A DNA stretch of 34,580 nucleotides from positions 1-34,580 of the IMG/VR virus record IMGVR_UViG_3300042465_003411, one strand, 5' to 3'. Position 1 is the stretch's first letter; every line of letters starts with the position of its first letter. Below, one piece after another: positions 1 through 33,161 of this stretch. The translations under genes and the position numbers were made by a program. Source of the DNA: a virus. Under the pieces are notes generated by a model. It was not told where the DNA came from and did not search any database. It saw nothing but the letters and a program-made list of their open reading frames with translations.

Positions 1-370
1 TGATTCCTGAATTAATTAATGCATTCAGGATATTACCGGATGGTGTTGGGAGGATTTCAATTTTACCCATGATATGATCACCATTCCACCAAATGTCTTT
101 GATGTTATGACATACATTCTTAAGGTTGATAATTGTAGAATCTGGGTGATCTAATTCACCAACGGCTCTATTCTCTTTAACTGACTCCATGTACTTATTC
201 ATTTCTCTATCCCAGATTTTTCTGCTATAATATCTTCCATTGCCGTTCTTTACTTCAGCAGTAGCTAAGATACCCTCTACTAAAGGTAGTCCACTAGCAC
301 CTTTTCCTTCAGATAAACTTAAAGGTTTTGGTGTGAATGAGATAGTTTCAATAAGTAGGTTTTTAGTCAT
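1..370 (-). CDS. 21: Prohead core protease, gp21-like (partial, 3' end outside window)
   Basis: This open frame starts with ATG at 370 and runs off the low-coordinate edge, giving 123 codons. The translation contains NGNGRYYSRKIW, then NRAVGELDHPDS, then IWWNGDHIMGKIEILPTPSG. This order is characteristic of the T4 gp21 prohead protease family (serine protease, Ser/His/Glu triad). The His in GELDHPD is the likely catalytic histidine; the catalytic serine would lie beyond the edge. The enzyme cleaves core and capsid proteins after Glu in (L/I)xE|(A/G/S). A self-processing-like site, L19-S20-E21|G22, is present near its own N-terminus, as expected for a zymogen. It lies 2 nt after the 330-residue protein gene. 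In T4 order the scaffold gp22 and major capsid gp23 would follow, outside this window. Identity is confident from motif order; only the N-terminal part is seen. Confidence 0.9.
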   Translation of the reverse strand, partial: MTKNLLIETISFTPKPLSLSEGKGASGLPLVEGILATAEVKNGNGRYYSRKIWDREMNKYMESVKENRAVGELDHPDSTIINLKNVCHNIKDIWWNGDHIMGKIEILPTPSGNILNALINSGI

Positions 371-372
371 TA

Positions 373-1365
373 TTAATACCCTCTTTGTTTCAATACACTC
401 TTCATTGCTTCTTGCCAAACAGGAGCTGTACCCACAGCTTCATCAATGATCTCTTCACCGCCTGCTGCTTTTGGTCTTACAGTATCGCCAGAAATTCTTT
501 TTGCTGCTTTAGCTTTTTGAGCTTCATACATTTTTTTTCTTTTTTCTAAAAGAGCAATATCTTTTTTGATTTCACTAATTGCTTTTTTATCAACTACATC
601 CTTCATATCGTCACTTTCGGTCATAGTTAATCTATTTTTTAATTCTTCGATTTTCTCTTGAATTTTACTAGCCTTATATTCGTATGCAGCAACTTCACCT
701 AGTTTTTCAATTTCTTTTAGGTGCTTTTCAATTGCTCTCTTTTTAGCTTCTGAAAGTGTTTCTTTATTTGTCATGTTGTCTTTTGCTTCGTTTAATTTAA
801 CAGGTTCCATTCCTGAGGATTTGTACTTACCTGTTACTTCTTTTGTTGGACCTAAACCGGGAGCATCCTGAGTATATCCGATGCCTTTAATGCCAAATGC
901 TCCATCTTTAATGTAGTATAATGGATCTTTTTCAAGGTTCTTAAATACGATCTTCTTAAGTTCGTCTTCTGTTTTATCTGCATTTTTAGGATCTTTCATC
1001 TCAACATAATACCCTGATAAGAGTTCATTGGTAGAGATGTTATTATTATTCTTTTTATCTTCGTAATCGTATCCAGTGGTTTCTTTCTCTACTACCGACT
1101 TATCCGTATCTTTTAAAGCAGCTTTAACTGCTTCTGTATTTTCACTAAAGATTTTGAACCAGTTTGGTTCTCCTTCTTTTTGAATTAATACTCCGGTCAT
1201 GCTTTCTGATATAATTCCTCTTTCAGTAAGGTTGTGTATTGATTGATCAAATGTAAGTGCGCCTGTCACTACATTAGGGAATAGGGTTCTAGCTTCCTTT
1301 ATAAAAAGTTCTCTGTTACCTTTACCTTCTTTAATTAAATTATATTTGTCTTGTAGGCTTTTCAT
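373..1365 (-). CDS. Putative prohead core/scaffold-type protein, 330 aa
   Basis: I recognise this as a conserved unnamed phage head-module protein, not by a catalytic domain. It is Lys/Glu-rich with long predicted helices (about residues 185-290, probably coiled coil), typical of assembly-core proteins. It carries candidate gp21 sites at I11-K-E13|G, I22-K-E24|A, I52-S-E54|S, L191-N-E193|A, L204-S-E206|A and I307-D-E309|A. These would shred it to peptides as happens to T4 core proteins. It lies immediately upstream of the protease gene and downstream of the portal, the slot occupied by the core proteins gp67 and gp68 in T4. The core role is inferred from position, composition and sites. The start is ATG at 1365, preceded by a TATTTATA element. 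Confidence 0.65.
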   Translation of the reverse strand: MKSLQDKYNLIKEGKGNRELFIKEARTLFPNVVTGALTFDQSIHNLTERGIISESMTGVLIQKEGEPNWFKIFSENTEAVKAALKDTDKSVVEKETTGYDYEDKKNNNNISTNELLSGYYVEMKDPKNADKTEDELKKIVFKNLEKDPLYYIKDGAFGIKGIGYTQDAPGLGPTKEVTGKYKSSGMEPVKLNEAKDNMTNKETLSEAKKRAIEKHLKEIEKLGEVAAYEYKASKIQEKIEELKNRLTMTESDDMKDVVDKKAISEIKKDIALLEKRKKMYEAQKAKAAKRISGDTVRPKAAGGEEIIDEAVGTAPVWQEAMKSVLKQRGY

Positions 1366-6911: not shown

Positions 6912-7369
6912 GTTACAACTTCGTCTAATTGCTGCTTTGTCCAATAACTATAGTAATCTGTTAATTTAAGACTATTTGACTTAGAAGTCAAGTCTGCTAG
7001 GTCTTGAACTATCCATAAATAACAGTCCGGGAATGTAGTTGTTACTCCGTTAATTGTAAAAGGATTCCTTGGGTCATTATCTAAAACTACTTTATTATGT
7101 GATATGAAAATTTCATTAAGACTTTTACTTTTAATTTCTAGAGTTTCAATATCATAATTTTCATAAGTCGGTAAATAATAAATACAGACTTTATAAGTTA
7201 CTATATCTGCATTAGTTACTTCATTTTCTATACTATCGAGGTTTGTTTCCTGAATAGTGTATTCTTTATTATTAATAGCTGCTCTAGCAAAAGGGCAGAT
7301 AGGTTTATTATTTAATTCTTGTTTTGGTGTAGTTAGATGGTTAAACCATTTATCGAGATTTGCCAGCAT
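6887..7369 (-). CDS. Conserved hypothetical protein, 160 aa
   Basis: I recognise the N-terminal pattern LDKWFNHLTTPKQELNNKPICPFA as recurring in uncultured marine phages, but no function is attached to it. The CPFA element plus a later single Cys may suggest a redox or metal site, though only three or so cysteines are present. The C-terminal half contains DPRNPFTINGVTTTFPDCY and an aromatic-rich end. There is no signal peptide or membrane helix. Its start overlaps the end of the Cys-rich 144-residue gene by 20 nt and its end overlaps the cupin gene by 25 nt, so it sits in a tightly coupled group of small late genes. Confidence 0.6.
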   Translation of the reverse strand: MLANLDKWFNHLTTPKQELNNKPICPFARAAINNKEYTIQETNLDSIENEVTNADIVTYKVCIYYLPTYENYDIETLEIKSKSLNEIFISHNKVVLDNDPRNPFTINGVTTTFPDCYLWIVQDLADLTSKSNSLKLTDYYSYWTKQQLDEVVTWRNHTKI

Positions 7370-7784
7370 TCTTCTTATCTGTTATCGGACCTCCAACAAC
7401 CCAAGCATCACAAGTTCTAGCAGCTGCACATTTAAACTTAAGAAACCTGCAGTAACCTAAATCTCCTGCTTCAATAACATCAAAAGGATCTTCAGAACCT
7501 TCATCATCCCCTATTCCTTTGGCAATACAATCTAAAGTCTTTTTAGTTATATCAAATGCTGCACAATTACCGCAGAGTGATTTCTTAGCTTCTTCTGCAG
7601 AATCTAATTTCCACATATCTACCTTGGCTTGCCAGAATTTCTCATTAGGTTCGTTTGGATTTAATGGACCATAACCATATTCATTAATTGCCTTCTGTCT
7701 GTTCTGAAGGTTTAGTTCAATGTTCTGTGTTGGTGCAGGGCATTTTCCAATCTCTACTTCACTAAGTATATCTATTAGTTTCAT
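7350..7784 (-). CDS. Cys-rich conserved phage protein with head-targeting-like N-terminus, 144 aa
   Basis: The protein starts MKLIDILSEVEIG, a short Leu/Ile helix ending in ILSE, like capsid-targeting sequences of T4 internal proteins; residue 10 is Val rather than Ala or Gly, so cleavage is uncertain. Residues 13-50 (GKCPAPTQNIELN and YGPLNPNEPNEKFW) are followed by a Cys-rich domain with C71-x2-C74, C86, C112, C119 and C125. The pattern CGNCAAF...DLGYC...KCAAARTCDAW is one I recall from many T4-like cyanophage and marine phage genomes. Six conserved-looking cysteines suggest zinc or iron-sulfur binding. The gene is coupled by ATGA to the upstream 106-residue gene. Metal type and role are not determinable here. 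Confidence 0.7.
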   Translation of the reverse strand: MKLIDILSEVEIGKCPAPTQNIELNLQNRQKAINEYGYGPLNPNEPNEKFWQAKVDMWKLDSAEEAKKSLCGNCAAFDITKKTLDCIAKGIGDDEGSEDPFDVIEAGDLGYCRFLKFKCAAARTCDAWVVGGPITDKKNAGKSR

Positions 7785-8101
7785 TTTTTACTTTTTATTA
7801 TTAACTCCCCTAAGACTTCTAATTTACCTACTTCTTTTTGAAACTCTGTTGCAGACATATTTAAGGAAATACTACTCTTAACTGATGCAAATTCATTTAT
7901 AGCTTGCTTTCTATCAAATTTACCTTCGGCTGCTTTCTTATAATAAGGAAGTTTAACCTTAAAGTGATGCCAGGTTAGCATTGAAGCTCCACCTTTTTCT
8001 TGTGCAGTATTTGCTATTTTTTCAGCACCGTTCATTCGAGTTGTTGCAAACTCCTGAAAAGCGTCTTTAGCTTCTGTTAATAAGTTTAAAAGTTTTATCA
8101 T
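7781..8101 (-). CDS. Small internal-head-protein candidate with T4-like targeting peptide, 106 aa
   Basis: With the ATG at 8101, which overlaps the previous stop as ATGA, the protein begins MIKLLNLLTE|AK. Ten residues followed by E|A is the same length and cleavage type as T4 internal protein I (MKTYQEFIAE|A), which is targeted into the prohead and trimmed by gp21. The remainder is a small basic helical protein with a WHHFKVKLPYYKKAAEGKFD patch at about residues 44-63, also seen in other phage proteins of unknown role. An alternative TTG at 8116 adds five residues and was rejected because it weakens both the overlap and the peptide match. A packaged, injected protein is inferred. Confidence 0.65.
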   Translation of the reverse strand: MIKLLNLLTEAKDAFQEFATTRMNGAEKIANTAQEKGGASMLTWHHFKVKLPYYKKAAEGKFDRKQAINEFASVKSSISLNMSATEFQKEVGKLEVLGELIIKSKK

Positions 8102-9189
8102 TTTGTTTTTCCCCAAGTTTTTCCTTTTCCAGGTGTTTTACATTGTGCTGCTGTTGGTCTACAGGCAGGATATTTAGAGCGTTTCTCTCCTTCTTTTCTT
8201 CCGCAGGATTTATACCCTCCGTCTCCGTCTGGTGCATTACAGTCTACCCATCCTTTCCCTTTTCCTTTTGCTCCTTGACGGTTAAACCATTTATGAAGTG
8301 ATTCAGCTTCATTTATAAATTCTATATCTGTTGGATATTCTTTATTTTTATTATAAAATTTAACCATCCACGGTAATTCTTTCCAAGAAGTTACGCCGTT
8401 TGGTGTTTCTGCATCAAAATAATTCCCTTTATATTCGATCCAGGCATGTCCGAAAGTAGTACTTCTACTGTCTTCTGTGCTCATTATTTTTGAACCTGGG
8501 AGATGTTTTGCTAGGTTTTTAGCAAAGATATCACAAAAGCCATTATTACATTCCTCACCTCCAAATACATCCCAGTTCTTATCTACTAGTTCTAAGGCTT
8601 CTTTTTCGGTTTGAGCTAAAGCAGTCTTGTATGTATTATTTAAATTATTTTCTTTTAAATTCTTAACTTGAACTAGGTTTGTTTTAATTTTTTCATTTCC
8701 TAGAGCCCAGTTAGCTACAAGTCTATGATGTCCGTCGTAAATCACTTTTTCACCGTCTGGGAATTCAACAACATTTATAGCTGGTATTTCCTTTGAGTTT
8801 GTAATTATGTGTTTTACCTTATTACTTTGGATGTTAGGTTGTGTAATATGAATATCTTCTATATTCACATACTCTTCCTTGCTTTTATTTTTTTCAAATA
8901 ATTCTATTACTTCACTCCAGCTATGTTTACTTCTATTAAAGATGCTTTCTATATTTTTTGCATCATCGAATAGTTTACCTTTAGGTAACTCATCAATTTT
9001 TTGTTCTGCTGAGGGTACTGTATCTTCTTTTAATTTTTTCCAAATATCCCCTTGACGGCATCTCACTACTGCTCCTGATTTGTATGCCGAAGGTTTACCG
9101 TATTTACGATCAGCAATACGAAGACACCTATCACGCTTCTCTTTTTCTTCTAAAAGAATCTGCTGTAGTATGTCTGTGAGCTTGGTCAT
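8098..9189 (-). CDS. Multidomain cargo candidate: ParB-like and Cys-His-Asp protease-like regions, basic Cys-rich tail, 363 aa
   Basis: The N-terminus (MTKLTDILQQILLEE) resembles a head-targeting helix. Residues 21-55 hold a CLRIADRKYGKPSAYKSGAV...CRQGDIW module known from phage proteins of unknown role. Residues 105-175 contain VIYDGHHRLVANWALG, the signature of the ParB/sulfiredoxin fold. Residues 200-265 contain NGFCDIFAKNL (C219), FGHAWIEY (H248) and YFDAETP (D259), spaced like the Cys-His-Asp triad of transglutaminase or papain-like enzymes. A candidate gp21 site I292-N-E294|A precedes a basic tail (WFNRQGAKGKGKGWVDC...CGR...PACRPT) resembling the DUF5872-type domain. Functions are inferred from motifs; catalytic activity of either domain is unproven. 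Confidence 0.6.
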   Translation of the reverse strand: MTKLTDILQQILLEEKEKRDRCLRIADRKYGKPSAYKSGAVVRCRQGDIWKKLKEDTVPSAEQKIDELPKGKLFDDAKNIESIFNRSKHSWSEVIELFEKNKSKEEYVNIEDIHITQPNIQSNKVKHIITNSKEIPAINVVEFPDGEKVIYDGHHRLVANWALGNEKIKTNLVQVKNLKENNLNNTYKTALAQTEKEALELVDKNWDVFGGEECNNGFCDIFAKNLAKHLPGSKIMSTEDSRSTTFGHAWIEYKGNYFDAETPNGVTSWKELPWMVKFYNKNKEYPTDIEFINEAESLHKWFNRQGAKGKGKGWVDCNAPDGDGGYKSCGRKEGEKRSKYPACRPTAAQCKTPGKGKTWGKTK

Positions 9190-9197
9190 AGACTATT

Positions 9198-9743
9198 TTA
9201 AAAGAAAGTTTGTTCGTAGTAAAGTATTTCGAAAGAATTAGCAACGTTTACAAGCTGTGCTGCATTTAATAAGTCAGCATACTCTGCTACTGATTCTACT
9301 TGTCCGGTTCTTAATGTTTGTAAGAAATCGAATGTAGATAAGTCGGAAGAGAATATAGTTGTTGATACGTTATTGTATGCTAATAGTAAATCAAGTTCTA
9401 ATTTATATGCTTTATTAACAATATCAATAAGATTTGTGAAGTCTGGTATTAATTTGATTGGTGCAATTACCGGAAGTACATTCCAGTCAACCATGTACTT
9501 CTGTAGCATTTCTGCATGAGTTAATTCATTAGCAGCTTCTAATGCAAAGAATGCAGCTGCTTTATTATATGCTTTATCCTTACACCAGTTTGATGCATTT
9601 CTATAAAAGTAATGAGCAGTATACTCATCTTTTAATCTTTCAGAGAGCATCAAAACTACTTGAGGGTCTAAAGTAACCGGTATCATAACATCAGCAGGAT
9701 TTGCTGATTGTAATTCATTTAAAGTTTTTAATTTGGTTTTCAT
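9198..9743 (-). CDS. Ferritin-like diiron protein, 181 aa
   Basis: A four-helix ferritin fold is indicated. Helix A has DEYTAHYFYRNAS (Glu39 plus a downstream Tyr), helix B has LEAANELTHAEML (the ExxH pair), helix C has KAYKLELDLLLAYN, and helix D has QVESVAEYADLL. These match the ferroxidase-centre ligands of bacterial ferritin. The family oxidises Fe(II) and stores the product in a 24-subunit shell. The length is normal for ferritin plus an N-terminal extension of about 20 residues (MKTKLKTLNELQSANPADV). The extension starts like head-targeting peptides, but LNE is followed by Leu, a poor gp21 site. It sits among head-cargo candidates. Whether it acts in the infected cell or in the particle cannot be read from sequence. 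Confidence 0.85.
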   Translation of the reverse strand: MKTKLKTLNELQSANPADVMIPVTLDPQVVLMLSERLKDEYTAHYFYRNASNWCKDKAYNKAAAFFALEAANELTHAEMLQKYMVDWNVLPVIAPIKLIPDFTNLIDIVNKAYKLELDLLLAYNNVSTTIFSSDLSTFDFLQTLRTGQVESVAEYADLLNAAQLVNVANSFEILYYEQTFF

Positions 9744-9763: not shown

Positions 9764-10372
9764 TTACCAGTATCCTGAGTAAGATCCTTTTAGTCCTAAA
9801 AGTTTAGCAAACCTTGGCAATCGACACGCCCAGTATCCCGGTTTAGTTTTATCTTTCTTACCTGCGCAGTTGTGTCTTTTTGCAAAGTTTACTCTTGCCT
9901 CAGAATCATTTATTTTAGCTTTTAAGCCAGTTGTTCCACCAAAAGAAACTTTCTTAATGCGTTTGGTTTTTGGATCTTTTACATAAACGTAAAATTTCTT
10001 AGAACCACCACGCTTTGGTTTACCTAACGGTACTTCTTTTCCTTGGTATTTAGCTTCTGTTAATTCTTCAGCCATTGGTAAGTCCAAAGGAACTAAATCA
10101 CCTTCATATAAGCCATATTCACCTAAGTGAGTTTCAGTTAAGATCTGCTTATCATCTGCTCCTACATCAATAATGTTTCTAGAGTATAAGGTTCTAGCTT
10201 CTTTCCATAGGTTTATAAAAGCAGGTGAACCGTATCTGAAAGTATTTTCTGTAAGTGGTTTCTTGTTTCTAATATGGTAAAGCAAGTTCTCTGAAAGAGG
10301 TTGTTGGAAGGTTATTCCTTCTTTTAATAACGGAGCCTTTGTTCCGCAAGTATTACATCCACAGCTACACAT
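9764..10372 (-). CDS. Head-cargo candidate with cleavable N-region and basic conserved C-domain, 202 aa
   Basis: The N-terminus has a compact Cys cluster (MCSCGCNTCG) and a candidate gp21 site L16-K-E18|G. A second site, L104-T-E106|A-K, separates residues 1-106 from a very basic C-terminal domain. That domain (about 115-190) contains KKFYVYVKDPKTKRIKKVSFG and ends in RHNCAGKKDKTKPGYWACR. I recognise it as a conserved module in T4-like cyanophage and pelagiphage head-region proteins; its function is unknown, and DNA contact inside the head is plausible from its charge. The ferritin gene follows after 20 nt. The start is the ATG at 10372. Processing at the two sites is inferred. Confidence 0.65.
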   Translation of the reverse strand: MCSCGCNTCGTKAPLLKEGITFQQPLSENLLYHIRNKKPLTENTFRYGSPAFINLWKEARTLYSRNIIDVGADDKQILTETHLGEYGLYEGDLVPLDLPMAEELTEAKYQGKEVPLGKPKRGGSKKFYVYVKDPKTKRIKKVSFGGTTGLKAKINDSEARVNFAKRHNCAGKKDKTKPGYWACRLPRFAKLLGLKGSYSGYW

Positions 10373-10381
10373 ATATTATAA

Positions 10382-11353
10382 TTATGATGGGAATAAGGTA
10401 TTAGTTATTATATTTAAAGCACCTTGGTTAGTAGATACGCCTTTGAGTAGTTGTTCGTCTGAAAGACTATCTATAAGTTCTTGGGTTATCTGCGTATATT
10501 TAATACTACCTTTTTGACTTACGTTAACTAAATATCCTCCGATACCCGGTTTCTTTGTTAGTTTAGTTGCTATTAAACGTCTCAGCATTTCCGCTGTTCC
10601 GTGTTCCGGGGTTATTTTACCTTCAATATTAAGTGCTTCTTTTACTGAGTCTATATTATTGTAGATGTTTTGTATTAATGCATAATCCCCTGCTATAGTT
10701 CTTAAATCACTCTGATCGAAGTCAGAGAGTCTTTTGAATGCTTCTAATAACTCTGGAGTGTTGAAGGTCATTGTTCCTGCGGTTCTTTTTCCTCCTTGGA
10801 AAGTCCCTACTAGAGTTGATACTCCAAATACTACTCCTAGGATTGCTATATTATCTTTATCAGATCCATAACGACCTAGAGTCATTGTAGTAGTTTCGTA
10901 AGCTTTGACTTCTAACCCGATATCTCCATCTACTATTAAATCAGGATTATCACTCCCTCTGCTATCTACAACAGTATGTCCTCTAGATAAAAGCCAGTGC
11001 ATAGCAATTTCTCCGTTTCCAGATCCTTTACTTCCTGCAGTATCAAGTTCTTTTCCTGATTTCGGAGGTGCAATTGGGTATAGTTTTGAGAAAATACGTT
11101 CATCTTCTCCTGAAAGGTTTATATTTTTACCTACAGAATATACACGGGAAGGTTGTGGTATTTCACCATTTTCATCTCCGGTTAGAACTTTAGCAGCAAT
11201 TTTATCGTAAATACTCCTGTCTTTAGGAGCTGCTGCTGCTTCTGCTTCAAATAATTCGAATAGAAGTTTTCTATCAGCTTCATTACTCAGGTCTGGATAG
11301 CCTTTAGGAAACTTGTATGAAACCTGTCTTATAAATTGTTCTACAATATCCAT
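10382..11353 (-). CDS. PD-(D/E)XK-like putative nuclease, 323 aa
   Basis: Residues 110-152 read GSGNGEIAMHWLLSRGH, then SDNPDLIVDG, then IGLEVKAYE. A Glu (E115), an Asp in PDL (D138) and an E148-V-K150 pair are spaced as in the restriction-endonuclease (PD-(D/E)XK) core. The N-terminal segment (KFPKGYPDLSNEADRKLLFELFEAEA) carries a candidate gp21 site L34-F-E36|A before the nuclease-like domain, so the mature form might be a packaged nuclease. The C-terminal third is helical with no motif I know. It overlaps the previous gene by 1 nt (TAATG). The nuclease call rests on motif spacing only; a structural DNA-binding protein with a decayed fold is an alternative. Confidence 0.6.
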   Translation of the reverse strand: MDIVEQFIRQVSYKFPKGYPDLSNEADRKLLFELFEAEAAAAPKDRSIYDKIAAKVLTGDENGEIPQPSRVYSVGKNINLSGEDERIFSKLYPIAPPKSGKELDTAGSKGSGNGEIAMHWLLSRGHTVVDSRGSDNPDLIVDGDIGLEVKAYETTTMTLGRYGSDKDNIAILGVVFGVSTLVGTFQGGKRTAGTMTFNTPELLEAFKRLSDFDQSDLRTIAGDYALIQNIYNNIDSVKEALNIEGKITPEHGTAEMLRRLIATKLTKKPGIGGYLVNVSQKGSIKYTQITQELIDSLSDEQLLKGVSTNQGALNIITNTLFPS

Positions 11354-11870: not shown

Positions 11871-13688
11871 TTATTTTGTAAAGCCACCTTTTGTTTCAGT
11901 ATGTCTCATTACTCTGTGCACTACGTCGGTTAGTGGCATTTCATTTTCGGATACTTCATCAAAATAATGTCTTTGACTTAAGTTTGTAGTTTTTCTTTTC
12001 TTTAAATCAAAAGGAGTGATAAAGGCTCTACCTTCTGAATAGGAATGAATTACCTGGTAGAATTTACCATCTGCTCCCCTTACTACATCTCCGATATTTA
12101 AAGCAGTTCCTTCAGCGTCTCTTTTAGGTTCGTTATTTACCATTAAAGGAGCAGTGTTAGAAATTGATTCACCGTCAAGGTAACTTCTAACTGCATTAAG
12201 GTAATCTTCTGCCTTTGTTAATTTAGATTGAACCCACCCTTGTAATTGTGTCTTCTCTCCAATAGAATCAAAAAGTGATTTAGCATTTTTAACAATTGAG
12301 ATTAATTGTGTTCTAGCCATTTGACCTTCGTAGTCATATTCTTTTGCTTCAAGTATTGGATGCTTTGCTTCAGTAACTGGTGCACGGTGTGGTGTACTTA
12401 AATCAGGACTCCAATCTTTAATCATATTAATCCAGTAAGTCTTAATTGCTCTTAAAGCTTCTTCTCTAGATTCTTCCGGTATTCCTTTAAGACGTTCTTC
12501 GAAGTCTACAAGTACTTCTTCCATAGTCATTTCTACAGATGGACCAGATACATCAACGTAGTCATCATCATCGTAGGTTCTTTCAAAGAAATCGTATAAT
12601 CCTTCTGTAACAGCATCTCCTTTTTGTAGGTTTGAGATTCTATGTTGAGCTGCTGCAATTTTAGCTTTTTGAGCTTGAATTTCAAGATCGTTAGCTTTTT
12701 TATCTTCCGGGCTCATCGGCCCTGCTTCTTTCAATTTACCTAATACGCTACTAATAACCTCTTTTTTCAATTTAAGGTCTTTAGCTGCTTTTTTCATAGG
12801 CTCAGTCTTGTTACCATCTTTATCTAAATCTAGATAGTCTGGTTTAGCTCCTTCGCTTAATTCCTCAAAGTTGGATATACGTTTTAAGTGACTTAATACA
12901 ACTGATGCTCTAGGAGTGCCTCTATCTAATGAAATTTTAATTTTAGGTCCTATTTTTGTAAATTTAATACTGTTAGAAGTTAAAAAATCAGTAATCTTAT
13001 CAGAATCAGAAGCTGATTCAGTATCTATTGTAAATGATTTTGCTTCTGTTAAACCTACCCCTTCTTTAAAAGGTCTTGGGCAAGGTGTGCCTTTAACGTG
13101 AACGTGTCCACATCTTCCGCATAATGTACCTTTAGCTTCGTTCTGAAGTTTAATTGCTTTTTTAAGCATATCTTTTATTTCATCATTACCGTGGTGTTTG
13201 TCCCAAAGTTCTCTATACTCTCTCATATCTTGATCATCCCAAGTTTCAATATCCTTGGTTGCAAGTCTGTGAGTAGGATCTATCTTAGCTACGAAATCAT
13301 TCTCTCTAGCCTCGGTAACTTCTTTTTTGCTTTTTCTTTTAGTAAGTTCTGCTTTAGCATCTTCTAAATCCTGCTTAGTAAGTTTAACACCTTTCTCATT
13401 TTTTTTCTGAGTATAGTGCTGTAATTCATTATTTAGGTTTACAATATGTTGAGCTAATTCATTAGCAGTTAGATCCTTAAGAGACTCTGTCATGGTTTCT
13501 GTCATTCCCTGTATTAGTTTATCTGTAATATCAAATCTATCATCTATAAAAGCTTGTAGGATTGCATCGTAAACCCTCTTTCCTCCTTTTAGTTTCAAAG
13601 GATTAATTTCTAATGTTTTACCGTTGTTTAAGTAAACTTTAATTTTGCTTGGTTTTTCAAATTGATCCCAATCTTTATATAGTGACAT
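11871..13688 (-). CDS. Putative cleavable head polyprotein with repeated VTEAK/LTEAK sites, 605 aa
   Basis: I do not recognise a single family for the whole protein; it reads as a string of small modules joined by candidate gp21 sites. Sites are V124-T-E126|A, L213-T-E215|A-K, L277-S-E279|G, L319-K-E321|A, V360-T-E362|G, V438-T-E440|A-K and I445-L-E447|A-K. Between them lie a Cys-rich piece (CGRCGHVHVKGTPC, residues 190-203), a piece with an EF-hand-like loop (YLDLDKDGNKTEPM, 285-298) known from many phage proteins, an acidic helical piece (363-440), and a C-terminal module (525-580) resembling an SH3/KOW-type barrel. The gene neighbours other candidate cargo genes. Processing and packaging are inferred from motif placement. 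Confidence 0.6.
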   Translation of the reverse strand: MSLYKDWDQFEKPSKIKVYLNNGKTLEINPLKLKGGKRVYDAILQAFIDDRFDITDKLIQGMTETMTESLKDLTANELAQHIVNLNNELQHYTQKKNEKGVKLTKQDLEDAKAELTKRKSKKEVTEARENDFVAKIDPTHRLATKDIETWDDQDMREYRELWDKHHGNDEIKDMLKKAIKLQNEAKGTLCGRCGHVHVKGTPCPRPFKEGVGLTEAKSFTIDTESASDSDKITDFLTSNSIKFTKIGPKIKISLDRGTPRASVVLSHLKRISNFEELSEGAKPDYLDLDKDGNKTEPMKKAAKDLKLKKEVISSVLGKLKEAGPMSPEDKKANDLEIQAQKAKIAAAQHRISNLQKGDAVTEGLYDFFERTYDDDDYVDVSGPSVEMTMEEVLVDFEERLKGIPEESREEALRAIKTYWINMIKDWSPDLSTPHRAPVTEAKHPILEAKEYDYEGQMARTQLISIVKNAKSLFDSIGEKTQLQGWVQSKLTKAEDYLNAVRSYLDGESISNTAPLMVNNEPKRDAEGTALNIGDVVRGADGKFYQVIHSYSEGRAFITPFDLKKRKTTNLSQRHYFDEVSENEMPLTDVVHRVMRHTETKGGFTK

Positions 13689-14753: not shown

Positions 14754-17700
14754 TTAAAATTGCGGTAAAGATAATGCTTTTAATCTCTTTCTCCAAAGTC
14801 CTAGAATATTTTCTTTATCTTCAGGAGTAATCTCCTGCATATCTAAGTAATCATTTAAAACATCCTTAAATGGTGTACGGGTCTTTTTAGCTTTCAAATA
14901 CATGCCCTGAAGCATCGGATCTAATTCTGATTGAAGTCTGAAGTAGTCTGCTTTAGGTAAAAGTTCCCAGTCAATCATCTGTCTCAGCATTTCATCATCT
15001 GGGGTCTCTTTTGCAGGTACTAAATTAACACCCATCTGTGTTAGATGTTCAATTTCATGTCTAACTACATCGATTAGGTCTTGATAAATTCTAGACCAGA
15101 ATTGAGGTAGTGATCTAGGATCAACTTGGAATCTAATTTCAAGATAGGCGAGATCTGAATCGTCTTCATCGTTTTTATCTTGTGCTTCAGCATCCGCTCC
15201 TCCGTCAACCTTGTAAGTACCTTCCTTGGTTTCTTTAACTAGAAGATCAGCACTTAAAATAAAATCTAATGGTCGTCCTTTTGCATCTTGAGTTTCGTAT
15301 TCCTCATCGTAACTTAGAGTATCTTCTTGTCCGTTATATTCTTCCTTCCAGGCAGCCATGATATCCTTAACTACTCTTCTAGTAATTGAGTCGTAAGCTC
15401 CCTCATTAATAGGCTGCATATCGTATGAACCAGGTGCGAATCCAGTCATGTTTCTGATGCTATTGTTTCCTTCTCTGTCGTTCTCCCAGGCTCTAAAAAG
15501 CATATTACCGTTATTATAGGCTTCGCTTTCAATGTCTGCTAGGTAATCATCCTCATTTACGTTTGTAGTCCCGCTCATATTCTCCAGCCTACCTTCGAGG
15601 TTTTGCATGTGATGGATCATCTCATGAGCAAATGATCTTAAAACATCCTTAGGGTGACGTCTGGTAATATAAAGAGTAATTACTTTGTTATTAGGATCGT
15701 AGTATGCGGTTCTCCCTAATGTAACTTTAGCGTTTTCTTCATCCTCTACGAACTCAATTCTAGGTGCAGGAGTAACGTTTAAACCTTGTTTAACCATAAA
15801 ATCAACTAGTTCTACAATATATGGTTCTAATTCCTGCTCTACTTCCTTATAACTCGGTGTAGTCTGTATAGGACTGTCTGCCGGTTCTCCGGTTGAGTAC
15901 AATCCTTCATTTAGATCCTCTTTCACAGGTCTGTATCCTGAACCGTAAGGTATGGCAGATCCTGCTTCTGGATCGGATGCTTCCTCTAGGTCGGGATTAT
16001 TATCGTGTGCACATACATCACCTGATGGTAGTGTATTATGGCATATGTATAAATCATCTCCGCCATCTGCTATTTTCCATGTCCAGCCGCAGTTATCACA
16101 AATAACTTCTGTGTCTGTTACTATTTCATTTAATTCTTCAAAAGTCATCTTAGGACTACTAGTCATGAAATTTGGTTTTCTCATGATAGTCTTAGCAATG
16201 GCTTTATTTGTCATATTTAAGAAGGGAATATTTAAATTTGTTGTTTTGTCGTTTGCAACAATTTCATCATACTCCTTAAAGAATTCAAAAAATTCCTTTT
16301 TATTTCTTCCAAGTCTTTTAAAGAATCCAATTAATTGTGCAAAAGAGATATCGGATTCTCTTCCGGTTAGTCTATCAAAGACGTGTTTGGAAGTTAAATC
16401 TACATCAATAGGAGCTAGTTGTGCATCAGCAAAAGCATCTGCTTGTTTTAATTCTGCAGGAGTTATTGATTCGTTGTTAGAATGAAAATTAATAAACCAG
16501 TTAGCTTGCTGTTTATCTAATGCAGTTGCATTCTCTCTATTTTTAAATCTTTTAGCTTTTTCAATAGTAACATCACCGCCGTATGCTTTCGTGATCTTTG
16601 CTTTGAAAGTTCCAGGTGCTCCGTTGTTAGTTCTTTTTCCTTTATATGCTTCTGTAAGGTCTTCTTTTTTTCCTTTAGAAAGAGCCTGAATGTATTCTTT
16701 AGCGGTTACTCCTTTAGGTAAAAAAGTTTCAATAGCTTGTAAGTCTTTATTTTTAATAGCAGTTCTTAATCCGCTGGCAGATAATCCTTTTAGGTTGCCA
16801 ATATTAACCGGAGTTACATTACTGTATTTCTCTCTGTTCTTCTCAACACTTCTCCAACGATCCTCTTCGTCTTTTCCAAAAACGGCAAGGTATTTATTTT
16901 CCGGATGTGCTTCAAATTCTTGATATGCATCTAAAACCGGAGTTGCATTTTGTGCTAATTTAATCTCAACGTTGCTTGGAATTAAGCCTTTTTGTTTATA
17001 AAGATCCCAAACTGCCATTGCCTGACTTGCATCAACAGGTACTTGACCTTCTTTTACTCTTGGTTGTTTTGAAACATAAACATAAACCTTGTTAACCTTT
17101 GGTGCAATTACTTGAATTGCTTTTAGATGACTGGCATGAGGTGGTTTGAATGCTCCAGGAAATACTGCAATAGTTTGTTTTCCTATTTCAGCCTCTAAGA
17201 TTGGTCTTATGAGATCTGTAATAAATGAACCGTACTTTTCTTCTAAAGTTGCAACCGTATCTAAAGCCATCTGCTTATTATCTCCTTTAGGAGTATTAAC
17301 TTCTCCGGACTTAATTGATACCATTGATTTAAAAATACCTTTAATTCTATTCTTAGATCTAGGATTTTTTAATTTTTTAAGGTCAGAAACTAAATCTTTA
17401 AATGATTGGTCAATATTATAATCTGAAAGTAGTTTTTTTACATCTGCCCAGTTGCTTGATTTCCAAACTTCTGTTCTATCAAGTTGTTTATAGTCCTGAT
17501 CTAAGGTTACAATTCTAAGAGTTAAACCTGCTGAAGATAAATTAAATTCATATTCTTGATTCGGTTCTAATGTAGGGATATTCTTAATACCCATCTTAGC
17601 AATTACTTTATTAGGATCTTCTTCCAAAGTAACTACTTTAACTAAACCTAAAATTAAACCTTGAATTTCTGCTGGATAATCTAAGAAAGTCTTTTTGAAG

Positions 17701-18092
17701 TCGCCTTCTTCCTCTGATAGAGCAATTATATTATCAACTTGAACGAATTCACCAGGCATTCCTACAATCGGATATAGGATTGTTACAATCTCCCCGGTAT
17801 TCATGGTTTTTTTGCCTTTGTACTTCTCACTCTTAAAAGGAACGATTATGTCGTCCGGAAGTGATTCTAAATACTTAGCAAGCTGCTTTTTAAATTCTTT
17901 CTTGTCTTCCCCTTCGAAAGAAGTAATCAGATCAATATCACCGAAGTCTTCCTTAGCAGAAGTATTGTATGAACCGGAAACTTTAGCTGATTTAAAGCTA
18001 GGTACTTTACTTAATACCTTATCAATATATTCTTGAACCGTCTTCTCGACAGCTGATCTTGGTATGCGATTACCTCCTGCTGAACCTGACAT
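14754..18092 (-). CDS. Giant putative cleavable polyprotein: nucleotidyltransferase, NMNAT-like, zinc module, two HExxH domains, 1112 aa
   Basis: Five candidate gp21 sites split this protein at domain borders: I298-L-E300|A, L479-T-E481|A, L702-E-E704|A, L727-N-E729|G and I895-N-E897|G. Segment 1-300 is a Pol-beta-type nucleotidyltransferase (GSYN at 40-43, D52-I-D54, third Asp D120). Segment 301-481 matches a nucleotide adenylyltransferase (HxxH in FPGAFKPPHASH, H319 and H322; SASGLR at 438-443), the size of a stand-alone NMN or pantetheine-phosphate adenylyltransferase. Segment 482-704 has a conserved phage module and a four-Cys zinc site (C665, C668, C684, C694). Segment 730-897 has H823-E-x-x-H827, and segment 898-1112 has H1012-E-x-x-H1016. 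The gene overlaps the upstream nucleotidyltransferase gene by 1 nt. Domain calls are good; cleavage and packaging are inferred. Confidence 0.7.
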   Translation of the reverse strand: MSGSAGGNRIPRSAVEKTVQEYIDKVLSKVPSFKSAKVSGSYNTSAKEDFGDIDLITSFEGEDKKEFKKQLAKYLESLPDDIIVPFKSEKYKGKKTMNTGEIVTILYPIVGMPGEFVQVDNIIALSEEEGDFKKTFLDYPAEIQGLILGLVKVVTLEEDPNKVIAKMGIKNIPTLEPNQEYEFNLSSAGLTLRIVTLDQDYKQLDRTEVWKSSNWADVKKLLSDYNIDQSFKDLVSDLKKLKNPRSKNRIKGIFKSMVSIKSGEVNTPKGDNKQMALDTVATLEEKYGSFITDLIRPILEAEIGKQTIAVFPGAFKPPHASHLKAIQVIAPKVNKVYVYVSKQPRVKEGQVPVDASQAMAVWDLYKQKGLIPSNVEIKLAQNATPVLDAYQEFEAHPENKYLAVFGKDEEDRWRSVEKNREKYSNVTPVNIGNLKGLSASGLRTAIKNKDLQAIETFLPKGVTAKEYIQALSKGKKEDLTEAYKGKRTNNGAPGTFKAKITKAYGGDVTIEKAKRFKNRENATALDKQQANWFINFHSNNESITPAELKQADAFADAQLAPIDVDLTSKHVFDRLTGRESDISFAQLIGFFKRLGRNKKEFFEFFKEYDEIVANDKTTNLNIPFLNMTNKAIAKTIMRKPNFMTSSPKMTFEELNEIVTDTEVICDNCGWTWKIADGGDDLYICHNTLPSGDVCAHDNNPDLEEASDPEAGSAIPYGSGYRPVKEDLNEGLYSTGEPADSPIQTTPSYKEVEQELEPYIVELVDFMVKQGLNVTPAPRIEFVEDEENAKVTLGRTAYYDPNNKVITLYITRRHPKDVLRSFAHEMIHHMQNLEGRLENMSGTTNVNEDDYLADIESEAYNNGNMLFRAWENDREGNNSIRNMTGFAPGSYDMQPINEGAYDSITRRVVKDIMAAWKEEYNGQEDTLSYDEEYETQDAKGRPLDFILSADLLVKETKEGTYKVDGGADAEAQDKNDEDDSDLAYLEIRFQVDPRSLPQFWSRIYQDLIDVVRHEIEHLTQMGVNLVPAKETPDDEMLRQMIDWELLPKADYFRLQSELDPMLQGMYLKAKKTRTPFKDVLNDYLDMQEITPEDKENILGLWRKRLKALSLPQF

Positions 18093-19057
18093 TATGCTGT
18101 TTTATATTTTATTAAGTTAGAATCATCTGGTAAGAATTTACCTTTTAAACCTAAACGCTCCTGGTTTTTAATCCAATAGTCTTGTAAGTCTTCAGGAATA
18201 TCTGCTCTAGTTGAATCTAGGATTTTTAAGAACGTATCATAAATACTATTTAAATCCTGTTCTGATATATTAGATTTTAAATAATCTATTAATTCAAAAT
18301 AATCATTAAGAACATCTTGAGTAATATTAGTTCCGTAAAGCTTGTTCATTAACTCTAAAGTCTGTTTAGGAGTTTCTGCTTCTACTTCCCTAGTTTCTTT
18401 ATCTAGGATTCCTTGTCCGTGTTTGAAGATTTTACCTTTATTTGTAAATAAGGCTACAAGTAGTTGAGTTCTATGTAAACCCTTAACGTTGCCTTTATAG
18501 AGATTTGAATAGTAGCTGAATCTTAACCATTCAGGATTTCCTACATTTATATCGATTTGAACGCTTTCTGGAAGCTCTTCTCCTGCTTCATTATACTGTG
18601 GGTAAGCAAAGAATAAAGAACCGTTAGCTGCTGATTTAGGATCCGATTCAATAGTTGCAGTTGCTTCATTGACTCTATTTGATATAAGTTCCAACATTGC
18701 TCTTAATGCAACTTGGGCCGGAGTAGCTGTTCTTACTCTCTTAGCAATCTTTTCAGATAACGCGTTAAATTCTGTAGGATCGATATTCCAGCCTTCAAAG
18801 TCTGGTTTATCACCATTCATGAAGTTTTTTACATCGTAAGATAAATCAATGTCTCCAGAGATATCTTTTTTCCCAGCAGACCCTAATTTCTCAAAGGATT
18901 TAAATGTAGAGGCTTTCTTAGGAAAAATATTCCCAAGCACCTCCACAAATTTTTCCATTGTAGATTCTATGTTTTCTTTTTTGATTGATGCGGTTGTTCC
19001 AAAAACATTACCGCCCTCGTTTAAGATTTGTTTTAAAAGAGAGGTAAGCTTGATCAT
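18092..19057 (-). CDS. Nucleotidyltransferase with head-targeting-like peptide, 321 aa
   Basis: A Pol-beta-superfamily nucleotidyltransferase core is visible: LGS at 58-60, GDID with D69 and D71, and a third acidic residue D169 in VQIDIN. This triad binds Mg-NTP. Such enzymes add nucleotides to RNA, proteins or small molecules; the acceptor is unknown here. The N-terminus MIKLTSLLKQILNE|GG is a short amphipathic Leu/Ile helix ending in an ideal gp21 site (L12-N-E14|G), very like capsid-targeting sequences. The next gene starts with a second, different nucleotidyltransferase, so the two may act as a pair. The ATG at 19057 is supported by the targeting-like peptide and by the TATTTATA element 4 nt upstream. 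Confidence 0.75.
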   Translation of the reverse strand: MIKLTSLLKQILNEGGNVFGTTASIKKENIESTMEKFVEVLGNIFPKKASTFKSFEKLGSAGKKDISGDIDLSYDVKNFMNGDKPDFEGWNIDPTEFNALSEKIAKRVRTATPAQVALRAMLELISNRVNEATATIESDPKSAANGSLFFAYPQYNEAGEELPESVQIDINVGNPEWLRFSYYSNLYKGNVKGLHRTQLLVALFTNKGKIFKHGQGILDKETREVEAETPKQTLELMNKLYGTNITQDVLNDYFELIDYLKSNISEQDLNSIYDTFLKILDSTRADIPEDLQDYWIKNQERLGLKGKFLPDDSNLIKYKTA

Positions 19058-20801: not shown

Positions 20802-21251
20802 TTAACTGGGTAAGAGCAAGTCTTTTCGGAAAATTCTGGATATGATGTTGTCGTTGTATGAATTTGTTTCAAGTACGTCATATTTACATTGGTAAGCAAT
20901 TTCATAATAAGTTAATTGTTTTTTGGTAAAACACAACTTTAAAATTTCTCTTTTAAATTTATCTTCTCCAATCTCCTTAACTTCTGTAAGTAAAGGTTTA
21001 CAGGAACCCCAGTATTCTCTCCAGTTAGATTCTTTGCTAACTTTTTTCTTGGTTGGTTTTCTTCCTGGGCCGGATTGTTCAGAGATTTCTTTCTTTGTTA
21101 ATTTTTTAGTGAGTGTGTTGGTGAATACTTTTCTACCGATATAGAATTTACCAGTCTCAATATTTGTTATCATATAAACAAACCCGACTGCTTTCTCATC
21201 GAATTGATATTCTTCTACAACCTCTTTATCTTCGTAAAACCAATTAGGCAT
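20802..21251 (-). CDS. SegE-like GIY-YIG endonuclease, 149 aa
   Basis: The GIY-YIG core is evident: GFVYMITN at 23-30, FYIGRK at 36-41 with catalytic R40, E117 in TYYEIAYQ, and N133/N135 in SYNDNI. A Lys-rich insertion (about 47-75) sits between the strand motifs and the SNWREYWGS block, which is conserved in the T4 SegE-type subfamily. These enzymes are usually free-standing homing endonucleases, although fixed roles in phage DNA metabolism are possible. It sits between tail genes and the primase, separated by 4 nt and 17 nt, a typical point for such an insertion. No inverted repeats or intron are seen around it. Confidence 0.8.
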   Translation of the reverse strand: MPNWFYEDKEVVEEYQFDEKAVGFVYMITNIETGKFYIGRKVFTNTLTKKLTKKEISEQSGPGRKPTKKKVSKESNWREYWGSCKPLLTEVKEIGEDKFKREILKLCFTKKQLTYYEIAYQCKYDVLETNSYNDNIISRIFRKDLLLPS

Positions 21252-32372: not shown

Positions 32373-32775
32373 TATTTAAATTTATTTCTAAAGTATCTGT
32401 CATCCCAGTATTTACTATACTGTAATTAACTTTTATAAATATAGTGTTATAATCTTGTGAAGTTTGTATTGTAACTATTCCCTGTATATTTGGAAAGTAT
32501 TTCTCTATAATACTTCCAATGTAATTTTCTATTTCCGCAACCCCTAAAGTTGTTATTTGTTCAAATACAAATTTACGTAACCCTGCCCCAAAAGTAGGGT
32601 TAAAGATTTTTTCCTGAGGTCCAGTCAATAGAAAATTTATTAGGTTATTCCTTATAGCATCTTTAGTTGTAAATGTTGGCTTAAATACAGAATTGGATTT
32701 AAAAGGCAAAGATACCCCAACCGCTTTACTCGGATTCTGATCTATAGGGGCGATCTTTACTAATCCAAATGCCAT
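32365..32775 (-). CDS. 25: Baseplate wedge protein, gp25-like, 136 aa
   Basis: The GPW/gp25 family pattern is clear: TTKDAIRNNLINFLLTGPQE, then NPTFGAGLRKFVFEQ, then IENYIGSIIEKYFPNI. In T4, gp25 sits at the inner baseplate and helps nucleate sheath assembly. The length matches T4 gp25 (132). It lies between a small helical protein and the gp6-like wedge gene, with a 1-nt overlap upstream and 8 nt downstream, so inner wedge proteins are co-translated. An octamer TATTTATA also occurs inside this gene at 32434-32441, about 60 nt before the gp6-like start, but coding constraint could explain it. Confidence 0.92.
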   Translation of the reverse strand: MAFGLVKIAPIDQNPSKAVGVSLPFKSNSVFKPTFTTKDAIRNNLINFLLTGPQEKIFNPTFGAGLRKFVFEQITTLGVAEIENYIGSIIEKYFPNIQGIVTIQTSQDYNTIFIKVNYSIVNTGMTDTLEINLNNG

Positions 32776-33161
32776 TACTTCTTAGACATTAAGCCCATTA
32801 TTTGATTTAAGTTTACTTCTCCGGGAGGCAGTGATGAACCTTCTCCTGCTGTGTTTACTGGGCGTGGTACGAATTCTTGACCTCCACCGAATGTCATTGC
32901 ATCGTTTGAAGTCATGTTTAGATTTCCATTCCTACCATCCATCATACCGCTAAGTAGAGATGCATATTTTTCTCTGGTGTTTACAGCAGGTGCTGTTGGG
33001 ATTGGCTGTACTAAAGTTTCTGTTACTTGCCCATAACCGCCTACACCTACAGGAACTGCCTTAGGAGCTTTTAAAGCCTCTAATAAAACGTCTTTCAATT
33101 CCTCTTGAATCGCTTCTTTTACAGTTTCTTTGATAAGTCTTTTTAATGTCTTGATGTCCAT
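32775..33161 (-). CDS. Small helical-headed virion protein, 128 aa
   Basis: The first 33 residues form an amphipathic helix (LKRLIKETVKEAIQEELKD...LLEAL). Pro/Gly-rich disordered sequence follows, ending in VNLNQIMGLMSKK. Candidate gp21-type sites L26-L-E28|A and V14-K-E16|A occur in the helix, but this gene sits in the baseplate block, so they may be chance. I know no family. A 1-nt overlap with the gp25-like gene suggests a baseplate or tail-assembly role. The start is ATG at 33161, preceded by a TATTTATA element. Confidence 0.55.
   Translation of the reverse strand: MDIKTLKRLIKETVKEAIQEELKDVLLEALKAPKAVPVGVGGYGQVTETLVQPIPTAPAVNTREKYASLLSGMMDGRNGNLNMTSNDAMTFGGGQEFVPRPVNTAGEGSSLPPGEVNLNQIMGLMSKK

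Follow-up and report, generated by a model that had tools for sequence, protein, structure and literature searches.

Prohead-protease cut motifs as predicted connectors in a candidate multi-enzyme capsid-cargo polyprotein of a probable T4-like phage

Polyvalent proteins of phages, as Iyer et al. 2017 characterize them (PMC5512222, in the sections drawn on here), join several unrelated enzyme domains, including zincin, Pol-beta nucleotidyltransferase (NTase) and BECR-type RNase domains, in single polypeptides of shuffled architecture that are encoded by late phage genes and proposed to be packaged and injected. The route from one such long chain to several working effectors is an open question for these proteins. 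A candidate case is a polyprotein gene in the virus record IMGVR_UViG_3300042465_003411 of IMG/VR, of which 34,580 bases, here called the window, hold terminase, portal and tail genes along with the first part of a gp21-type protease gene, and probably come from a T4-like phage of a Bacteroidota host. Its product is probably a modular capsid-cargo chain of the polyvalent type, cut in the prohead by gp21. Here the answer to the question may be readable in sequence, and it can be tested in a cultured relative, Flavobacterium phage vB_FspM_immuto_2-6A (immuto).

In those sections of PMC5512222, processing of polyvalent proteins is ascribed to their zincin domains or, rarely, to a fused assemblin-like peptidase, and nothing there points to connectors recognised by a T4-type prohead protease encoded separately. 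The T4 protease gp21 cleaves after L/I-X-E (PMC9026906, in the parts used here, also for the T4 substrates that follow). T4 IPI-III and Alt carry a short N-terminal capsid targeting sequence (CTS) ending in L/I-x-E, are cut by gp21, packed and injected; each gene gives one mature protein, whereas the polyprotein would yield five or six and has its sites between enzymes, with no N-terminal CTS. The T4 scaffold gp22 and core proteins likewise hold several L/I-x-E sites per chain that gp21 cuts, but their peptides mostly leave the head, while the sites in the polyprotein spare folded domains. In phiKZ and SPN3US (gp175, gp245) a gp21-type protease also processes many packaged proteins; there, unlike here, the motif is AXE (in SPN3US) and the event is described as propeptide removal, and a term search of the sections used of PMC10052503 and PMC9026906 found no multi-enzyme release from one chain. 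Finally, cyanophage NMNAT/cytidylyltransferases (T4-GC190) share with the polyprotein's module B the adenylyltransferase superfamily and have a CTS-like start. Presumed members of the PHROG families of module B have been detected by others in S-SM1, S-SZBM1 and S-CREM2 virions (PMC3037559, PMC9146016, PMC10665884), with carry-over considered possible by the S-CREM2 authors, and this detection would bear on relatives of module B only, not on the polyprotein. Unlike the polyprotein, the Syn9 example, which starts MKKFSAFLSE|A (a vertical bar marks the predicted cut, after E), has 382 aa and one recognised enzyme domain; in the Methylophilales phage Melnitz the NMNAT is part of a CTS-bearing fusion that contains internal sites. 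Given that multidomain injected cargo has already been described (PMC5512222, same sections), the novelty of the present locus would lie in its prohead-protease-site connectors, since an enzyme chain joined by the cut sites of a separate prohead protease was not found in the open-licence PMC literature. A first-pass annotation of this DNA had taken gp21-processed multi-enzyme cargo to be undescribed, which survives for the connectors and not for injected multi-enzyme cargo as such.

The gene is read from the minus strand, with its ATG at 18092 and its stop at 14754-14756, and lies between tail genes and the terminase, portal and protease genes, that is, among late or virion genes. It encodes eight modules, A to H (Table 1), which include an NTase, an NMNAT, a predicted RegB-fold domain and two zincins and thus fall within the 2-15 disparate domains of polyvalent proteins, whose shuffled shared-module architectures and late neighbourhood the locus also has. 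A phmmer search with the whole polyprotein returned nothing significant. The full-length AlphaFold model (47 sequences in the alignment, mean pLDDT 76.5) consists of ordered blocks with very low-confidence stretches between them, and all five predicted cut sites lie inside segments of pLDDT<50, which total 207 of 1112 residues. Low confidence across D-F is partly a matter of the thin alignment, because module D modelled alone (AF2) reaches 92.9.

Module A matches Pol lambda/beta in Foldseek (E 2e-7), with Pfam NTP_transf_2 sub-threshold. Module B combines the fold of NMNAT/NadD adenylyltransferases (VIA Z 14.8 to 3h05, the best match; Foldseek matches to NadD, PPAT and NMNAT) with their HxxH and SxxxxR motifs, and by its profile matches to phrog_3041 (1.1e-7), phrog_395 (1.8e-6) and, as an isolated domain, Pfam CTP_transf_like (2.1e-4) it belongs to the phage cytidylyltransferase/NMNAT families represented by these PHROGs; because PPAT scores equally, NMNAT-type substrates are candidates only. 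For module D, T4 RegB (2hx6) is clearly the first VIA match, over 99 of 107 residues and with a Z of 7.8 (<8), followed by RelE-family toxins; the Foldseek E-value is not significant, and in Pfam REGB_T4 is matched by 7 of 15 homologues, with a best value of 2.5e-4 that falls short of the cut-off in those members for which it was shown, and DUF4258 by 3. HExxH and a downstream E are invariant in module G (27/27 sequences), where Pfam gives weak matches to M76, M91, DUF6782 and MPTase-PolyVal, the last in 7 of 27 members (best E 0.024) and outscored by M76 and DUF6782. Pfam gave no zincin family for module H, and its assignment consequently depends on the pattern RHExEH with a downstream E, invariant in 27 sequences. 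Profile searches of D, G and H against PDB sequences gave nothing significant. The domains named in the first-pass annotation, an NTase (Pol beta/lambda fold), an adenylyltransferase (NadD/PPAT/NMNAT), a CxxC zinc stretch and two HExxH domains (823, 1012), all hold, while the predicted RegB-fold domain at 546-652 had been overlooked.

Comparison with 79 viral contigs (handles beginning with L) and immuto shows extensive shuffling of these modules. Immuto, which infects Flavobacterium sp. LMO8, is the nearest cultured relative found, with a 907-aa homologue, gp183 (QQO91862.1), in the same genomic setting. Module profiles distinguish about 30 architectures among some 50 representatives, in which modules change order, turn up as insertions, drop out or stand alone, and new modules are added. 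The zinc ribbon (module E) precedes G in some relatives and stands between G and H in others, and its profile is also found in further positions and in standalone ORFs. Module B is duplicated in two relatives, modules C-F are missing from many, and D and F are separate genes in immuto. In L085 module G is a separate gene whose own start region ends LIQE|G. A scan of genome contigs hit mostly contigs of metagenome-assembled genomes with phage-like neighbours, and among them no clean control lacking gp21. Two observations on further modules may be added. A window protein (8098-9189, minus strand) fuses a YunG/ParB-like region to a C-terminal 'KWF..GWVDCN' domain, and in L055 the CDIFA module of this protein forms an insertion separating A from B. 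A 5'-nucleotidase/HAD-type enzyme (22726-23325 of L081; C-terminus of L040) is encoded in immuto by a separate gene with a CTS-like start (NT5C 4.7e-5) and, as judged by eye, forms a C-terminal fusion in L040, L084 and L087.

The expression [LI].E[AG] has exactly five matches in the polyprotein, whose E residues are 300, 481, 704, 729 and 897, the same residues that had been listed at first pass. Composition shuffles give 1.7±1.3 matches, and at least five in 2.8% of cases (P=0.028); the count in a single protein is therefore weak evidence, and the case depends on the relatives. Per-gene counting was rejected as proof in general, with the polyprotein at P=0.03 and primase relatives also looking enriched, the latter probably through a chance match to one of their conserved motifs (VLCEGTFDA in the window protein). 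Position is more telling. Across 126 junctions of the representatives (5,333 residues) there are 49 strict motifs where shuffled linkers predict 9.3-9.4 (5.3x, z 13.5), and module interiors (21,437 residues) are depleted, with 14 against 31 expected, so that densities per 1000 aa are 9.2 and 0.65. Replacing E at P1 by D, Q, N, S or T brings the count near or below chance, a one-residue shift of the spacing or a reversed order brings it near or below 1x, and the control [LI]xK[AG] reaches 2.2x. At P3, L/I and M are enriched and V about two-fold, while A, K/R, D/N and S/T are not; enrichment at junctions appears only when L/I/M at P3 is combined with E at P1. Because the module boundaries had been drawn from this polyprotein, the test was repeated with automatic BLAST homology breakpoints, and 36 of 232 breakpoint starts (8.5 expected) had a motif no more than 5 residues away, as did 31 of 282 ends (9.4 expected), with most controls near 1x. 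As the homologues are not independent, these enrichments speak to position and specificity and are not exact probabilities.

The individual sites differ in strength. The clearest precedes module H, where [LIM]xE|G stands directly before the domain in 22/22 alignable homologues despite differing preceding modules and unconserved positions further upstream, and LKE|G or LEE|G lies upstream of three divergent H modules; counted by representative, the site is present in 25/25 (GH 19/19, EH 5/5, FH 1/1 junctions). Module B has [LIM]xE at most 24 residues upstream in 34/35 cases, the exception starting directly with B, and standalone B proteins start MNSLVKALIQPILE|A, resembling the internal GSFITDLIRPILE|A. 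An xxE precedes module C in 5/5 representatives (VQE|T in L011) and module F in several contexts, standalone proteins included (DLKE|ADD, LLQE|ADN). On this comparison sites 897, 300 and 481 appear best supported, 704 moderately and 729 weakly. The comparison proposed at first pass, of whether homologues keep the E|A/G sites while linkers vary, thus comes out in favor at the first three and in some contexts at 704, and poorly at 729.

Gene fusion offers a further view of the same motif. The stop of the upstream 321-aa gene overlaps the polyprotein start (TAATG), and the upstream protein begins MIKLTSLLKQILNE|GGNVF, where CTS-less relatives of the immuto type begin MGGNVF, exactly the predicted mature end. 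In L005 the upstream and polyprotein genes are fused (1535 aa), and the seam reads KYQTLTE|SGSIGANRI as against KYKTA-stop and MSGSAGGNRI in the separate genes, such that cutting would restore the separate N-terminus. The cognate protease is encoded by the same phage, as had been noted at first pass: a partial gp21-type gene lies in the window, and immuto encodes a complete homologue (gp201). Immuto motifs of the same form fill the scaffold, lie in the N-terminal region of the major capsid protein (MCP; VSE|A at 59) and occur near both ends of gp21 itself, and many of the proteins encoded near the polyprotein, both in the window and in immuto, have CTS-like starts.

Taken together, the polyprotein would join the prohead core, where the gp21-type protease would cut after E in L/I/M-x-E|A/G between modules before DNA packaging, just as in the scaffold, the MCP and capsid-targeted internal proteins. 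The predicted products, of 33.6, 20.1, 25.2, 2.6, 19.2 and 25.1 kDa from N- to C-terminus, would include a Pol-beta-type NTase, an NMNAT-type adenylyltransferase, a C-D-E piece with the predicted RegB-fold RNase, and two zincins. Packed with the DNA and then injected, they could increase NAD, act on RNA as nucleases and cleave proteins, possibly those of the host. The modules, the way they are shuffled, the motif specific to their junctions and the protease encoded alongside are seen in the sequences; packaging, cutting, injection and these activities, together with the module substrates, we infer. The reading of the first-pass annotation, a head polyprotein cut by gp21 between enzymes, passes the comparative tests, with the qualification that its five sites are unequal. 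More broadly, and with somewhat less assurance, we favor the view that in a broad T4-like clade the maturation protease doubles as a polyprotein processor and a three-residue motif serves as universal connector, any L-x-E-joined enzyme being packaged, separated and injected in a way that would allow rapid shuffling of effectors.

Self-processing, in which zincins G and/or H cut the polyprotein and LxE is either incidental or their own recognition site, draws on the proposal that zincins, the commonest polyvalent-protein domains, autoprocess (PMC5512222, same sections), and both zincins here keep HExxH and the downstream E. It is nevertheless improbable, for the motif equals that of T4 gp21, it also marks zincin-free proteins (scaffold, MCP, gp21 and CTS-bearing neighbours), and the Melnitz fusion has it with neither zincin. 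There is likewise only a small chance that the sites are relics, leftover CTS of fused genes in a protein that remains uncut or is cleaved at no more than one or two of them. The resemblance of the A-B site to a standalone CTS and the poor conservation of 704 and 729 would fit such an origin, but L/I/M and E are conserved in linkers that vary at every other residue, motifs are depleted inside modules, and the L005 seam has a site though the downstream gene is without a CTS in other phages. An ordinary, unpackaged intracellular multidomain protein with motifs due to chance or linker composition, for which the single-protein P of 0.03 might be cited, is very unlikely given the five-fold fewer motifs in composition-matched shuffled linkers, the mostly flat spacing and residue controls, and neighbours that are late head or tail genes or carry CTS.

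Several points nonetheless weigh against processing and packaging by way of gp21. The motif count within the single polyprotein is only mildly above chance; homologues conserve sites 704 and 729 poorly; at P1' some of the A-B junctions carry Q, N or E in place of A/G; and the C-D, D-E and B-D junctions are without a motif. The module boundaries derive from this polyprotein, and the homologues are statistically dependent. No proteomic data were found for this polyprotein or for immuto. Further, the polyprotein starts MSGSAGGNRI, and an N-terminal CTS of its own was rejected as there is no motif near residue 1; entry into the prohead might instead go through an internal CTS-like segment before site 300 or through association with the CTS-bearing upstream protein.

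If the gp21-cut cargo reading is correct, L-x-E junctions become a key for reading T4-like phage genomes, and a junction scan would predict which uncharacterized proteins travel in the capsid, the starts of the mature enzymes, and whether NAD synthesis, RNA cleavage or proteolysis is among the activities delivered early in infection. A further use might be the loading of a capsid with several distinct enzymes that a single gene encodes.

Table 1. Features of the window discussed in the text (positions in the window; residues refer to the polyprotein)
Feature	Position	Strand	Remarks
Polyprotein ORF	14754..18092	-	1112 aa, modules A-B-C-D-E-F-G-H
Module A, Pol-beta-type nucleotidyltransferase	17193..18092 (residues 1-300)	-	GSY at 40, DID at 52
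Module B, NadD/NMNAT-type adenylyltransferase	16650..17192 (residues 301-481)	-	GAFKPPHASH at 313, SASGLR at 438
Module C, no assigned function (YKGKRTN...)	16470..16649 (residues 482-541)	-	Profile matches in 5 representatives
Module D, RegB/RelE-fold (BECR-type) predicted endoribonuclease	16137..16457 (residues 546-652)	-	Fold and Pfam
Module E, zinc-ribbon-like CxxC module	15996..16130 (residues 655-699)	-	CxxC stretch at 665
Module F, short 'AIPYGSGY' connector	15906..15980 (residues 705-729)	-	AAPYGSGY in most relatives; also inside immuto gp187
Module G, zincin metallopeptidase 1	15402..15905 (residues 730-897)	-	HEMIHH at 823
Module H, zincin-like metallopeptidase 2	14757..15401 (residues 898-1112)	-	HEIEHL at 1012
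Predicted cut site after E300 (ILE|A)	17193..17195	-	pLDDT<50 at 286-303
Predicted cut site after E481 (LTE|A)	16650..16652	-	pLDDT<50 at 476-491
Predicted cut site after E704 (LEE|A)	15981..15983	-	Inside pLDDT<50 segment
Predicted cut site after E729 (LNE|G), weakest of five	15906..15908	-	Poorly kept in homologues
Predicted cut site after E897 (INE|G), strongest	15402..15404	-	Homologue alignment
Upstream 321-aa protein, GS...DID nucleotidyltransferase-like motif	18092..19057	-	CTS-like start MIKLTSLLKQILNE|GGN
gp21-type prohead protease, partial, runs off window	2..370	-	phrog_207 head maturation protease, E 7e-38
Probable head/core protein	373..1365	-	Five [LI]xE[AG] sites (0.8 expected; P=0.003); placed like gp200 of immuto
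Two small proteins with CTS-like starts	7350..8116	-	MKLIDILSE|V; ...MIKLLNLLTE|A; immuto homologue MRLLELLRE|A
Candidate cargo protein, 3 sites	9764..10372	-	C-terminal domain begins near LTE|A
Candidate cargo protein, 4 sites	11871..13688	-	0.85 expected

Among the neighbouring genes, the C-terminal domain of the 9764-10372 protein (RGGSKKFYVYVKD...GYWACRLPRFAK) also ends the Melnitz CTS-NMNAT fusion, where it follows xxE|A/S. The same candidate cargo region encodes a Ferritin/Dps-like protein (9198-9743, minus strand; Pfam Ferritin 1.6e-19), and a similar-looking one lies near the separate G-module gene of L085. The protein at 10382-11353 (minus strand) matched nothing in Pfam or PHROG and contains DLIVDGDIGLEVKAY, reminiscent of a PD-(D/E)xK nuclease core, and the start of the one at 20802-21251 (minus strand) resembles a GIY-YIG endonuclease (GFVYMITNIETGKFYIG). 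A tail-region protein (32775-33161, minus strand) has the CTS-like start MDIKTLKRLIKETVKEAIQEELKDVLLE|A, such that starts of this kind may extend beyond the head region.

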